Origin: Rickettsia endosymbiont of Lasioglossum villosulum
Lineage (GTDB): Bacteria; Pseudomonadota; Alphaproteobacteria; Rickettsiales; Rickettsiaceae
Assembly: GCF_964026455.1 (NCBI RefSeq)
Contig: NZ_OZ032152.1
Location: 1,178,001 to 1,242,000 of the forward strand
Direction: 5' to 3'
DNA length: 64,000 nt
Shown piece by piece: positions 2,541-28,806 of the stretch. A program made the translations under genes and the position numbers. Numbering within the stretch: the stretch's first letter is position 1; every line of letters begins with the position of its first letter. A model generated the notes under the pieces. It was not told where the DNA came from, made no database searches, and was given only the letters and a program-made list of their open reading frames with translations.

Positions 2541-4526
2541 ATGAGTAACTTTTCTATTATATCAGATTATAAACCAGCGGGTGATCAGCCAAAAGCAATT
2601 GATGAAATTATCAAAGGCTTAAACAACAAAAAGCGTTCGCAGATGTTACTTGGTATTACAGGCTCAGGTAAAACCTTTACTATGGCAAATATCATAGAAA
2701 GAACCAACCGACCGACGCTTATTATGGCACATAATAAAACACTAGCTGCACAAATTTATTCCGAAATGAAATCGATTTTTCCCAAAAATGCAGTTGAATA
2801 TTTTGTCTCATATTATGATTATTACCAACCAGAAGCTTATATCCTGAAAACCGATGTTTTTATAGAAAAAGACTCCTCAATTAACGAGCAGATTGACTTA
2901 ATGAGGCACTCAGCTACAAGATCGTTATTAGAGCGACGTGATGTTATAGTCGTGTCCTCTGTTTCTTGCATTTATGGTCTTGGTTCGCCGGATTTATACT
3001 ATCAAATGACAGTCAATTTAGAGCCTGGTAAAAGCTACCCTCGTGATAAGCTACTTAATGATTTAGTGAATTTACAATATGAGCGTAATGATATTGGTTT
3101 TGAACGTGGTTGCTTTCGGGTTAAGGGGGATAATGTTGATGTTTTTCCATCACACTATAGCGATAAGGCTTGGCGTTTGTCATTTTTCGGTAACGAACTT
3201 GAGTATATTCACGAATTCGATCCGCTAACCGGTGAAAAGCTTGCTAAACTTGATAAAGCTATAATATATGGTAATTCTCATTTCGTAATGCCAAAAGAAA
3301 CAGTAAATAAAGCAATATCGGAAATTGAAGAGGAATTGCAAAAACGTATTGCATTCTTAAAATCGCAAGACAAATTACTGGAAACACAAAGGATCAATCA
3401 ACGCACTCAATACGATCTTGAAATGCTAACCGAAACAGGCAGCTGTAAAGGTGTAGAAAATTACTCCCGCTTTTTCACAGGTCGTAAAGCTGGAGAGCCA
3501 CCACCCACTTTATTTGAATATCTCCCAAAAGATGCGTTATTATTTGTTGATGAAAGCCACGTATCCGTACCGCAAATTAGAGCTATGTATAACGGTGATA
3601 GAGCAAGGAAAGAAGTGCTGGTAGAGCATGGATTTCGTCTACCGTCAGCTCTTGATAACAGACCACTAAAATTTGAAGAATGGGAGAATTTTAGACCGCA
3701 AACTGTTTTCGTATCAGCAACTCCATCACCTTTTGAGTTAAATGAAACTGGCGGCGAAGTTGTAGAGTTAATAATTAGACCTACTGGGCTGCTTGATCCA
3801 GAATGTATTATTAAGCCTGCTACTAATCAGGTTGAGGATTTAGTAGGCGAAATCCAAAGCACGATTGCCAAAGGTTTCCGTGTGTTAGTTACAACTCTTA
3901 CCAAAAAAATGGCAGAAGATTTAACCAATTATTTACAGGAACTTAAATATAAAACCTCTTATTTGCATTCTAACGTTCATACATTAGAGCGTATCGAAAT
4001 ATTAAGGGATTTAAGGCAAGGAACAATTGATATTTTAGTCGGAATTAACTTGCTACGTGAGGGTTTAGACATTCCCGAATGCGGTTTAGTTGCCATACTT
4101 GATGCTGACAAAGAAGGGTTTTTGCATTCGGAAGTATCGCTGATACAAACAATTGGTAGAGCTGCAAGAAATAGCGAGGGAAGAGTTATTCTCTATGCCG
4201 ATAAAATGACTAAGTCCATTGACAAAGCTATTAGCGAAACGATGCGTAGACGGACAATTCAGCAAGAACATAACGAAAAATATGGCATAATTTCAAAAAC
4301 CATCAACCGTACTATCCATGCTTTAGCAGAGCTTGAGAAAGTAGATAGTAAGCTTGATAAAAAACAAACGCATAATTTATTTGAAAATCCAGCTAAGCTA
4401 AAAGCTCATATTGATAAACTAAGAAAAGAAATACTTAAAGCTGCAAGCAATCTTGAATTTGAACAAGCAGCAAAACTTCGTGATCAACTAAAAACTTTAG
4501 AAGAGGCAGCATTAGAATTGAGCTAA
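2541..4526 (+). CDS. uvrB: Excinuclease ABC subunit B
   Basis: Damage-verifying helicase-like subunit of the UvrABC nucleotide excision repair complex. The 661 residues match the family. Walker A is GITGSGKT at 38-45, the beta-hairpin region includes [11 protein letters not shown], the DEAD-like box is FVDESH, and helicase motif VI appears in [11 protein letters not shown]-terminal UVR domain ([22 protein letters not shown]) contacts UvrC. It is transcribed alone, divergent from grxC and convergent with gltP, whose stop lies 3 bp away. All catalytic motifs are intact. Confidence 0.98.
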
Positions 4527-4528
4527 AT

Positions 4529-5734
4529 TTATGACAAGTAAACCTCTTTATCTAATGTCCCTTCGCTATTATCAACAAGCATAGTAATTGTTGCATCACC
4601 TGTTATATTAATGGTAGTGCGTAACATATCAAGAATTCTATCTATTCCGGCAATAATTGCTACACCCTCAATCGGTAAATGTACAGATGAAAGCACCATA
4701 GGCAGCATGATTAACGAAGCTCCAGGAATACCAGCACCGCCAATTGAGCCAAGGGTTGAGGTTAAGATAATCACTAAATAATCATGCGGAGCAAGCGTTA
4801 CGCCCATCATTTGAGCAAAAAAGATAGTAGTAAGCGATAAATTTATAGCAAACCCATCCATATTAATTGAAGCACCTATCGGCAATACAAACGAGGTACT
4901 AGACTCTGAGATCCCAAGTTTCTCACGACAAACTTGCATAGTAGTTGAAAGAGTTGCTTTGCTACTTGAGGTAGAAAAAGCAAGTATTTGATACTCAAAG
5001 CTTTTCTTATAAAAAGGTATAGGAGATACACGACAAAATATATATATAAGCAAACCGAATACTAGATATTGAAATGTCATTGCCACAACAACTGCTATAA
5101 CAAGCTTTGAAAGGCTTATCATTACTTCTATACCTTGCGTGCCTATAATCCAAGCTGTTAAAGCAAAAGCACCATAAGGTGATAATTGAATAACAAAAGA
5201 TATCATTTTTAGTACTAATTTTGACATTAAATGTACTAAATCAGTAATAGGTTCTGCTGCTGCTTTCATTTTATTTAAGGTAATACCAACAAAGACGGCA
5301 AAAAATACTACTTGCAAAACATCACCATTTGCAAAAGCACCGACAGCATTATCAGGTACTATATTTACAAAGAAATCTATTATATTAAAGGATGTTCTCT
5401 CAACCTTGCCAGAGCCAGAAGGAGAAAAATCTATATGCATGCCTACGCCAGGTTTCAATATTGCAGCAACAGCAAGACCAAAAACCGTAGCAAAAAAAGT
5501 AGTTCCTAAAAAGGCTACTACCGCTTTCATGCCTACCCTGCCAAGTGCAGAAGTATCATTCATACTAGTAATGCCTGAAACCAAGCTAAAGAAAATTAGT
5601 GGTGCAATGATCATTTTTATCAAACGTAAAAATATGTCACCGACTGGCTTAATATAATCAACATATTGCGGTAGGTAAATACCGAATATAATACCGAAGA
5701 TTAGACCTAAGGTAACTTTTTGCCATAATTTCAT
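4529..5734 (-). CDS. gltP: Dicarboxylate/glutamate:cation symporter (DAACS family)
   Basis: Inner-membrane symporter bringing in glutamate, aspartate or C4-dicarboxylates with H+ or Na+, a key carbon source for an obligate intracellular bacterium. The 401 residues give the expected multi-span profile. The family's serine-rich re-entrant loop is seen as STSSSKATLSTT and the substrate/cation motif as NMDGFAIN; the second hairpin is in GSIGGAGIPGAS. The start follows a GGAGTAAAAA stretch on the minus strand. Imported glutamate would feed 2-oxoglutarate to sucAB nearby, an inference from pathway. GltP versus GltT/DctA cannot be separated by eye. Confidence 0.93.
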   Translation of the reverse strand: MKLWQKVTLGLIFGIIFGIYLPQYVDYIKPVGDIFLRLIKMIIAPLIFFSLVSGITSMNDTSALGRVGMKAVVAFLGTTFFATVFGLAVAAILKPGVGMHIDFSPSGSGKVERTSFNIIDFFVNIVPDNAVGAFANGDVLQVVFFAVFVGITLNKMKAAAEPITDLVHLMSKLVLKMISFVIQLSPYGAFALTAWIIGTQGIEVMISLSKLVIAVVVAMTFQYLVFGLLIYIFCRVSPIPFYKKSFEYQILAFSTSSSKATLSTTMQVCREKLGISESSTSFVLPIGASINMDGFAINLSLTTIFFAQMMGVTLAPHDYLVIILTSTLGSIGGAGIPGASLIMLPMVLSSVHLPIEGVAIIAGIDRILDMLRTTINITGDATITMLVDNSEGTLDKEVYLS

Positions 5735-16905: not shown

Positions 16906-16933
16906 TTGACTATTTATATTATTCAACTAATAT
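16906..16933 (+). promoter_or_regulatory. Sigma-70 promoter for the structured RNA
   Basis: TTGACT (16906-16911), 16-bp spacer, TAATAT (16928-16933). Transcription would start near 16940, immediately before the structured region. Confidence 0.65.
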
Positions 16934-16939
16934 ATGAAA

Positions 16940-17100
16940 CGCTAATGATGTTTAAGCTCCATTGTTGCAAGACCAATCTGTCAAAAACTTATAAGTCAAG
17001 TTTATGCCAGGGGTCTGTTATTATAAGTGAGTAAAATCATGAAGTATAATGGAGGTTGTTATATTGTAACAACGGAGCTTAACCCCTGGCACCCTATTTT
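16940..17100 (+). ncRNA. Structured non-coding RNA, 6S-RNA-like architecture
   Basis: About 160 nt between ctaE and a small TPR ORF, directly behind a consensus promoter and ending in CCCTATTTTTT. A long outer stem pairs 16950-16970 with 17064-17083 (GCTCC and GGAGC at its core, G-U wobbles, one bulge). Inside are a large open bubble and an apical stem pairing 16987-16994 with 17021-17028. This closing-stem/bubble/apical-stem plan resembles 6S RNA (ssrS). A second pairing, 17006-17014 with 17082-17090 (GCCAGGGGT / ACCCCTGGC), is perfect and crosses the first, and 17055-17061 can pair with 17067-17073. No tmRNA T-loop or SRP RNA core was found. A leader or switch for the next gene is the alternative. 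Confidence 0.5.
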
Positions 17101-17117: not shown

Positions 17118-17411
17118 ATGAAAAGTAAAAAACACGATTTAAGCAATTTAGAGTCATATACTGATGAAGATGCTAACGTAATTTTAGGCTTAACTCTACA
17201 AGAAATTGAAATAATTAAATTTTTTGGTAGCGATAACTATTGCTGCGATATGAAAGAAGCTCTCTCTAAGATTGGGTATTGCTATAAAAAACTTGGGAAT
17301 ATTGAAGAAAGTAAGAAATATTTTGAACAAGCAGAGTTGTATAAACAGCCTACCCAAGACATAGAAAATATATATTCAGAACTTCTTGGATATGATAGCA
17401 TTGAGGATTAA
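17118..17411 (+). CDS. Small TPR-containing protein, unknown function
   Basis: 97-residue acidic protein with one recognisable tetratricopeptide-like repeat: EALSKIGYCYKKLGNIEESKKYFEQAELYK (about 48-77). The N-terminus is charged (MKSKKHDLSNLES), no signal peptide or membrane span. It starts 18 bp after the structured RNA and has no strong ribosome binding site. It ends overlapping the coq7 stop by 4 bp, tail to tail. Likely a lineage-specific protein-interaction module; possibly a fragment of a larger TPR protein. Confidence 0.55.
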   Translation: MKSKKHDLSNLESYTDEDANVILGLTLQEIEIIKFFGSDNYCCDMKEALSKIGYCYKKLGNIEESKKYFEQAELYKQPTQDIENIYSELLGYDSIED

Positions 17412-28574: not shown

Positions 28575-28733
28575 AACTTTTCATTTATTAGCAGTATATC
28601 CTGAATTGAGAGCAGGTAGCTAGTTGTTCGCCAGTTTGCCTATTAGTTATAAGCGTTTGTATTAATGCATGTTGCCAAATCCAATTGAGTTTAATTATGT
28701 AGGATTGTTAATAATTCATCTTGTGTTTAACGG

Positions 28734-28806
28734 TGCCAATGTGGGGATTTGAACCCCAGACCTACGCATTACGAATGCGCCGCTCTACCAGCTGAGCTAC
28801 ATCGGC
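28734..28806 (-). tRNA. tRNA-Thr (anticodon CGT)
   Basis: Full cloverleaf on the minus strand, 73 nt. Acceptor stem GCCGATG / CATTGGC (one G-U), D-arm GCTCAGCTGGTAGAGC, anticodon stem GCGCA / TGCGT with loop TTCGTAA (anticodon CGT, reads ACG), T-arm GGGGTTCAAATCCCC. The discriminator is A and the next bases are CCG, so CCA is not encoded. It is the only tRNA in the window. Confidence 0.97.

Follow-up and report, generated by a model that had tools for sequence, protein, structure and literature searches.

A pseudoknotted RNA at the coxC locus of a Rickettsia endosymbiont, most likely a divergent relative of sRNA-Xcc1

The small RNA sRNA-Xcc1 is called a trans-acting sRNA in the title of Chen et al. 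2011. In Xanthomonas campestris its length was given as 88 nt by end mapping and as approximately 100 nt on Northern blots (PMC2996969). The most widespread Xanthomonas cassette carries sRNA-Xcc1 upstream of symE (PMC12444791), and seven copies occur in one Xylella genome (PMC12189769). The accessible parts of these three reports from Xanthomonas and Xylella contain no worked-out mechanism. For Rickettsia and Rickettsiales, the literature on structured RNAs, pseudoknots, motifs and covariance models does not report the RNA family described here in its titles and abstract openings.

Here, we analyse a stretch of 64,000 nt, called the window (C1:1178001-1242000), from the 1.51 Mb genome of the Rickettsia endosymbiont of Lasioglossum villosulum. 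The RNA lies in a gap flanked by the COX3 and COQ7 genes (Pfam assignments) with a small TPR ORF downstream, a site referred to as the coxC locus. G-numbers denote genomes, L-numbers denote loci or copies, and R1, R2 and R3 are covariance models built in this analysis; all parts of the RNA are on the plus strand. A sigma70-like promoter was read at 16906..16933 (TTGACT at 16906-16911, a 16-nt spacer, TAATAT at 16928-16933), exactly as in the preliminary description of this DNA, and a -35/-10 pattern stands upstream of 43 of the 68 family copies, compared with 111 of 3400 random stretches. The conserved core covers 16942..17093, with the transcript start expected near 16940. It scores 145 bits with R1, by construction since the window copy was in the R1 seed; R3, seeded with six other sequences, returns the same core bounds at 25.5 bits and a rough E-value of 1.3e-4 (without filters). 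The core had been described as free of ORFs, and no ORF of at least 50 aa overlaps it. As a single sequence, the window copy folds in a moderately unusual way (z -2.48, equalled or surpassed by 2 of 200 shuffles). No Rfam model matches at the RNA at its gathering score, and the sole match there at E<=10 is a microRNA model (E 9.3). The only Rfam gathering match in the window is a tRNA-Thr (CGT) at 28732-28806 on the minus strand.

Three helices form the core. Helix A joins its 5' strand (16952..16970) to the 3' strand A' (17064..17082); the outer stem of the preliminary description is thereby retained, at about 18 bp instead of 20, as 16952-16960 with 17074-17082 and 16962-16970 with 17064-17072 around one A.C mismatch. 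Helix B pairs 17005..17014 (TGCCAGGGGT) with B' (17082..17091), which lies directly 3' of A'. Helix C is a hairpin at 17015..17052 (17015-17021 with 17046-17052). As the order is A-B-C-C'-A'-B' and A' runs straight into B', A:A' and B:B' constitute a pseudoknot. The crossing pairing noticed before therefore exists, with 10 bp rather than 9, as the pseudoknot partner of A:A' and not as its competitor; competing pairings do occur in the RNA, the competitors of A:A' being P0, E and D, which are treated below. Hairpin E at 17055..17073 (17055-17061 with 17067-17073) had already been recognised as the third hairpin. The placement of both 3' strands is based on pair counts and on a MAFFT alignment of 11 sequences, which agrees with the helix assignment.

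Compensatory change in the stems across Rickettsia had been named as a check on the structure, and it is found. In 54 distinct aligned sequences, 91.5% of the pair cells hold standard pairs vs 36-42% in slid controls, where the alignment was fitted to A and C and favours both, B being absent from the model. Both sides change in 27 of 36 pairs (217 cells vs a shuffle mean of 64), and every helix contributes (15 of 18 pairs in A, 6 of 10 in B, 6 of 8 in C). The structured RNA at 16942-17093 is thus confirmed. Some positions outside the helices are conserved as well, e.g., UA before B and CC after B'. The T-run at the end, correctly seen in the window copy, does not hold as a general 3' end; it is present in 16 of 68 copies only, and an intrinsic terminator was rejected in that role. 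In the coxC copies L019 and L020, the latter with lost pairs, a palindrome beside helix B forms a rival hairpin by eye.

A blastn search found matches in 23 of 58 genomes. R1, built from 11 diverse sequences, detects the RNA in 23 of 23 Rickettsia genomes, most of which have two copies and four of which (G000, G058, G014 and G002) have three; the recurring sites are the coxC and the rbfA/Tim44 loci (Pfam, one genome). Within the bacterial family, 29 of 85 genomes have a match. R2 matched 31 of 343 Rickettsiales genomes, and its search of the class matched 1 of 385, the endosymbiont's own genome. Between G000 and G003 the RNA differs at 14 of 149 sites and the four-fold sites of coxC at 49 of 96, and between G012 and G007 the figures are 18 of 149 (0.12) and 18 of 111 (0.16). 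Because of the latter rates, and since several pairs are lost in the copies L017, L101, L020, L100 and L018, constraint appears to be relaxed in some lineages.

A published transcript may correspond to a paralogue of the window RNA. According to the accessible part of PMC5105140, Rc_sR25 of R. conorii (811219-811387, minus strand, 169 nt; Table 1) is listed as trans-acting, both of its neighbours are on the other strand, and RNase P lies 71.5 kb away on the same strand. In all six genomes searched, RNase P and the rbfA-type copy share a strand and are separated by 71.8 kb (G007), 71.3 kb (G020), 69.8 kb (G006), 84.9 kb (G017), 64.1 kb (G012) and 42.2 kb (G010). We take the copies in G007, G020 and G006 as the match of Rc_sR25, by position, strand and flanks as given in that part of the source rather than by sequence. 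Rc_sR25 so placed fits the rbfA-locus paralogue and not the coxC copy, and suggests that the rbfA copy is a discrete transcript. Rc_sR16 was considered as the published transcript and rejected, as the reported RNase P distance and strand fit Rc_sR25 instead.

The relation to sRNA-Xcc1 emerges from a chain of models. R3, seeded with six divergent copies, matches 23 of 343 Rickettsiales genomes, which belong to 18 of 134 genera; a single genome has up to 8 copies. It also finds Rickettsia copies in G011, G014, G015 and G002 again. At 4 of the 12 loci scanned, R3 hits overlap sub-threshold matches of the Rfam model of sRNA-Xcc1, RF02221 (34.5-47.5 bits vs 53). Searched directly, RF02221 matches 81 of the 343 genomes at E<=1, 12 of them above the cut-off; 1 of 14 control genomes was also matched, below the cut-off. 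Among the matches listed, both models coincide at 10 places, e.g., G134:C85 with 55 bits. Conversely, R3 placed all of 9 above-cut-off RF02221 loci correctly (15.2-27.9 bits), 4 of them at E<0.01, these E-values being rough. The window copy itself has no RF02221 match at the gathering score (53 bits) or at E<=10; joined to the family by the model chain while not scoring in RF02221, it is to be seen as a divergent relative. Judged from sequence and predicted structure, the window RNA most likely represents a divergent branch of the sRNA-Xcc1 superfamily.

Parts of the layout are shared with the family. A closing helix of about 9 bp around two hairpins is found in the window RNA, as B:B' with C and E, and the RF02221 alignments display the same arrangement, including the trailing CACC. 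Differences exist as well. The sRNA-Xcc1 model has a conserved AAUACAAUACC where the window RNA, in our own alignment, has UAUUAUAAGUG; the R3 seed sequences carry AUACAA at the equivalent stretch. Unlike sRNA-Xcc1, the window RNA resides at coxC and not in an integron, a phage, a plasmid or other mobile DNA, and a search among plasmids gave no match to it.

Outside Rickettsia, the RNA has the position of a leader. There, 13 of 17 copies precede a small ORF with a Shine-Dalgarno-like site (at least 29 aa, within 60 nt), with starts at +22 to +35, compared with 1 of 51 copies inside Rickettsia and 214 of 5100 random positions. The 17 copies include two phage contigs, a third G293 copy was omitted at a contig end, and L128 failed the count because of a weak site. 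Among further R3 copies, 17 of 30 lie before such an ORF. The downstream ORFs encode either small proteins or short peptides, of 30-31 aa in G219 and G293, that are hydrophobic by eye; of ten proteins run against Pfam the TPR ORF of the window alone passes the cut-off. A small hydrophobic ORF downstream, present after some relatives, is absent in the window, and most Rickettsia copies are followed by no ORF. Both phage contigs are metagenomic: L116 encodes portal and Mu F-like head proteins and carries the RNA and a small ORF at 3.7-4.1 kb, and L118 encodes a terminase, ParE/ParD and a cytosine-5 DNA methylase, with the RNA and a small ORF at 6.4-6.8 kb.

The small protein family A6 was considered as a fixed partner and dismissed after a scan of 20 further A6 loci gave no R2 match at E<=1; G026 has nine A6 members, and L136, L147, L152, L154 and L156-L160 are among the loci scanned. 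Two further surroundings were observed. In L075, a group II intron (RF02012, 7249-7385) and a BrnT toxin gene (4654-4932) are near one RNA copy, and in L076 (G263) the RNA and an 81-aa ORF at 3674-4478 lie just upstream of a Cpn10 (groES) gene.

The preliminary description had offered, as one of its two readings, a switch that controls the TPR gene. That ORF (97 aa, 17118..17411; TPR_8, 26.4 bits vs a cut-off of 25.7) is a neighbour whose membership in the unit is not supported: it has no clear ribosome-binding site, and the partner ORF is inconstant among the coxC-locus copies whose neighbours were read. The copies in G003, G007 and G012 have no TPR-type ORF, those in G014 and G002 have lost its start, and the one in G058 agrees with the window over the 85 nt shown. 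In G011, the gene order is RNA, a 55-aa hydrophobic ORF and, about 300 nt off, a related TPR-like ORF, its likeness to the window ORF being judged by eye. On the basis of this order, the window copy would have lost the middle gene, so that the TPR ORF now abuts the RNA. L079 (G011:C1:1108739-1108817) and L027 consist of only a promoter and the 5' strand of A followed by a TPR-like ORF (weak Pfam match), whose ribosome-binding site is by eye complementary to strand A.

Rival pairings were tested by swapping partners among loci in 20000 permutations, with counts that must not be taken as probabilities because the loci are related by descent, which inflates all tests. P0 (16944..16966; 16944-16950 with 16960-16966) pairs the 5' end with the middle of A and excludes the inner part of A:A'; own partners beat swapped ones, with 2 of 20000 permutations reaching the observed value (n=27). 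Hairpin E pairs the linker with the inner part of A', which it withholds from A; here none of 20000 does so (n=27). A rival hairpin D:B, in which segment D (16971..17004) takes the 5' strand of B, is also supported (18 of 20000, n=27; 39 of 20000 without the coxC-type copies), a signal that is perhaps due only to the resemblance of B to a Shine-Dalgarno site. In the window copy D:B is weak (-3.6 kcal/mol). The P0 and D:B tests omitted the degraded copies L101, L017, L020, L019 and L100, as well as L012, where no B was located.

In ORF-bearing relatives, D is complementary to the Shine-Dalgarno spacer, a partner that the window copy does not have. Across 15 such copies, D pairs with its own spacer at -15.7 vs -10.6 kcal/mol for permuted ones (0 of 20000), and again 0 of 20000 was obtained with 12 copies after dropping three near-duplicates. 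The 15 copies comprise 14 from outside the genus, L128 being retained, and L022, in which D pairs with a stretch other than the Shine-Dalgarno site. In only 5 of 15 copies is the own spacer the best partner, and in one it ranks twelfth. The signal is weak in 17 further copies (648 of 20000) and absent in 8 copies from other genera (6078 of 20000). B' was rejected as the anti-Shine-Dalgarno element, being weaker than D (59 vs 0 of 20000). By eye, the minimum-energy folds contain P0, E, C, B:B' and D:spacer together in 5 of 12 cases; that of the window copy has A:A' instead of the P0/E arrangement.

The Rfam model RF02221 lacks the 5' half of the RNA described here. Most of the RF02221 loci tested have an A-like strand upstream: in 20 hits, pairing between A' and the 95 nt that precede the model reaches -24.9 vs -18.5 kcal/mol for permuted partners (0 of 20000). 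A repeat with another upstream window, in which two near-copies (L204, L205) were dropped and four named records added (n=22), again yielded 0 of 20000, with the own partner best in 12 of 22. The four named records alone give no significant A:A' (1674 of 20000), and in L200, L212 and L216 the pairing is no better than the shuffled mean, or barely. As its hits pair with sequence upstream of the model, RF02221 looks truncated. With the 5' end mapped for the 88-nt RNA, as far as the accessible part of PMC2996969 reports it, the A strand would lie outside the transcript unless processing occurs, which argues against a pseudoknot throughout the family.

Of the 20 hits, 16 are followed by an ORF with a Shine-Dalgarno-like site; three of these ORFs were run against Pfam, and all encode HTH_3 proteins. 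When two such RNAs were used as queries in similarity searches, 7 and 8 records were obtained from plasmids and 22 from phages; four of these, the named records above, score 72-86 bits in RF02221. In 3 of the 4 the RNA is just upstream of an antirepressor-type gene: 40 nt before ant (AntA/AntB) in Escherichia phage Rac-SA53, 45 nt before ant (Bro-N with P22_AR_C) in Haemophilus phage Aaphi23, and 47 nt before the Rha gene in Pantoea plasmid p5_CQ10. In Stenotrophomonas phage Smp131, the RNA overlaps with an ORF that carries an anti-repressor annotation. The library searched yielded no paper on sRNA-Xcc1 together with an antirepressor.

From these data, the RNA in the window probably belongs to a Rickettsiales branch of the sRNA-Xcc1 superfamily; it would be a free-standing member with a pseudoknot core, and its gene-bearing relatives would be translation-controlling leaders with ON and OFF folds. 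What the computation shows is the helices, with pairings that exclude each other on paper, the position as a leader and, in Rickettsiaceae, the complementarity of D; which fold is ON, and the steric exclusion of D by A:A', are what we infer. In the core, the 3' strands of A:A' and B:B' would run on without a break, and hairpin C would sit at the junction. The putative OFF fold would contain P0 and E, together with a pairing of D to the Shine-Dalgarno spacer that extends helix B:B'. In the putative ON fold, A:A' replaces P0 and E; with B:B' in place, D would have to span the stacked helices and could hence not hold the site. Folding kinetics, a protein, a metabolite or an antisense RNA are candidate triggers. 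For copies that still have their gene, the reading that fits best is that of a bistable translational leader with a pseudoknot. In Rickettsia, the retained RNA may be a transcript of about 165 nt that acts alone or, in some lineages, a slowly decaying relic. For the superfamily as a whole, we see an even balance for and against a wider statement: sRNA-Xcc1 would have been modelled as its 3' half only, and the complete RNA would act as a bistable translational switch with a pseudoknot, placed by phages, plasmids and other mobile DNA before antirepressor, helix-turn-helix and small membrane-peptide genes and kept free-standing in Rickettsia after gene loss.

Other readings were weighed against the leader model. 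One that we hold possible, with some doubt, is an orphan riboswitch or protein-binding leader, in which a group of small genes would respond to a single signal through the core, and the free-standing copies would be sponges. Several copies per genome with differing ORFs, as well as the conserved UA and CC outside the helices, would be expected from such an element; the downstream ORFs tested with Pfam share no family, which tells against this reading, and we know of no ligand or protein. Equally tentative is a trans-acting sRNA with incidental gene neighbours. Rickettsia keeps the RNA without an ORF and with a promoter-like pattern upstream, the paralogue fits Rc_sR25, listed as trans-acting in the accessible part of PMC5105140, and sRNA-Xcc1 was mapped as an 88-nt RNA in that of PMC2996969, all of which this reading accommodates. 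The tight ORF spacing outside the genus and the covariation of D with the spacer speak against it.

We judge it rather unlikely that the RNA belongs to a type I-like toxin-antitoxin messenger, whose leader would silence small membrane peptides under the control of an antisense RNA or of folding kinetics. ORFs of 30-62 aa with one hydrophobic stretch by eye and several copies per genome are compatible with this, as are two copies with type II toxin-antitoxin genes nearby (ParE/ParD in L118, BrnT in L075) and the Xanthomonas cassette with sRNA-Xcc1 upstream of symE, as described in the accessible part of PMC12444791; other copies, however, precede antirepressor, helix-turn-helix or soluble ORFs. 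On type I toxin-antitoxin systems with small membrane proteins in Rickettsia, the library searched yielded no paper. The other proposal of the preliminary description, that the locus is the Rickettsia 6S RNA, rested on a long stem with a bubble in about 160 nt and can be dismissed almost with certainty: RF00013 has no match at the locus at E<=10, a separate single 6S gene is present in 8 of 8 genomes searched (in this genome at C1:1467872-1468030(-), 46.5 bits vs a cut-off of 46.4), and the pseudoknot topology differs. The earlier interpretation as a whole is thus partly supported; its structured RNA with competing pairings and its novel switch RNA agree with the covariation and with the leader-like relatives elsewhere.

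If the leader model is true, sRNA-Xcc1 would become a cis-acting switch open to testing, with a link to the antirepressor genes of phages; its full fold would comprise an upstream strand, a pseudoknot and an anti-Shine-Dalgarno segment, the last of these in one bacterial family. In Rickettsia, Rc_sR25, an sRNA that the accessible part of PMC5105140 lists and leaves unexplained, would gain a family by virtue of its position. The model also suggests, for Rickettsia, an RNA that has outlived the gene it once led.

Leaders of hok-type type I toxin mRNAs and pseudoknot riboswitches oppose local hairpins to long-range pairing and sequester the Shine-Dalgarno site, as is proposed here. The likeness of the window RNA family to these systems is one of architecture.
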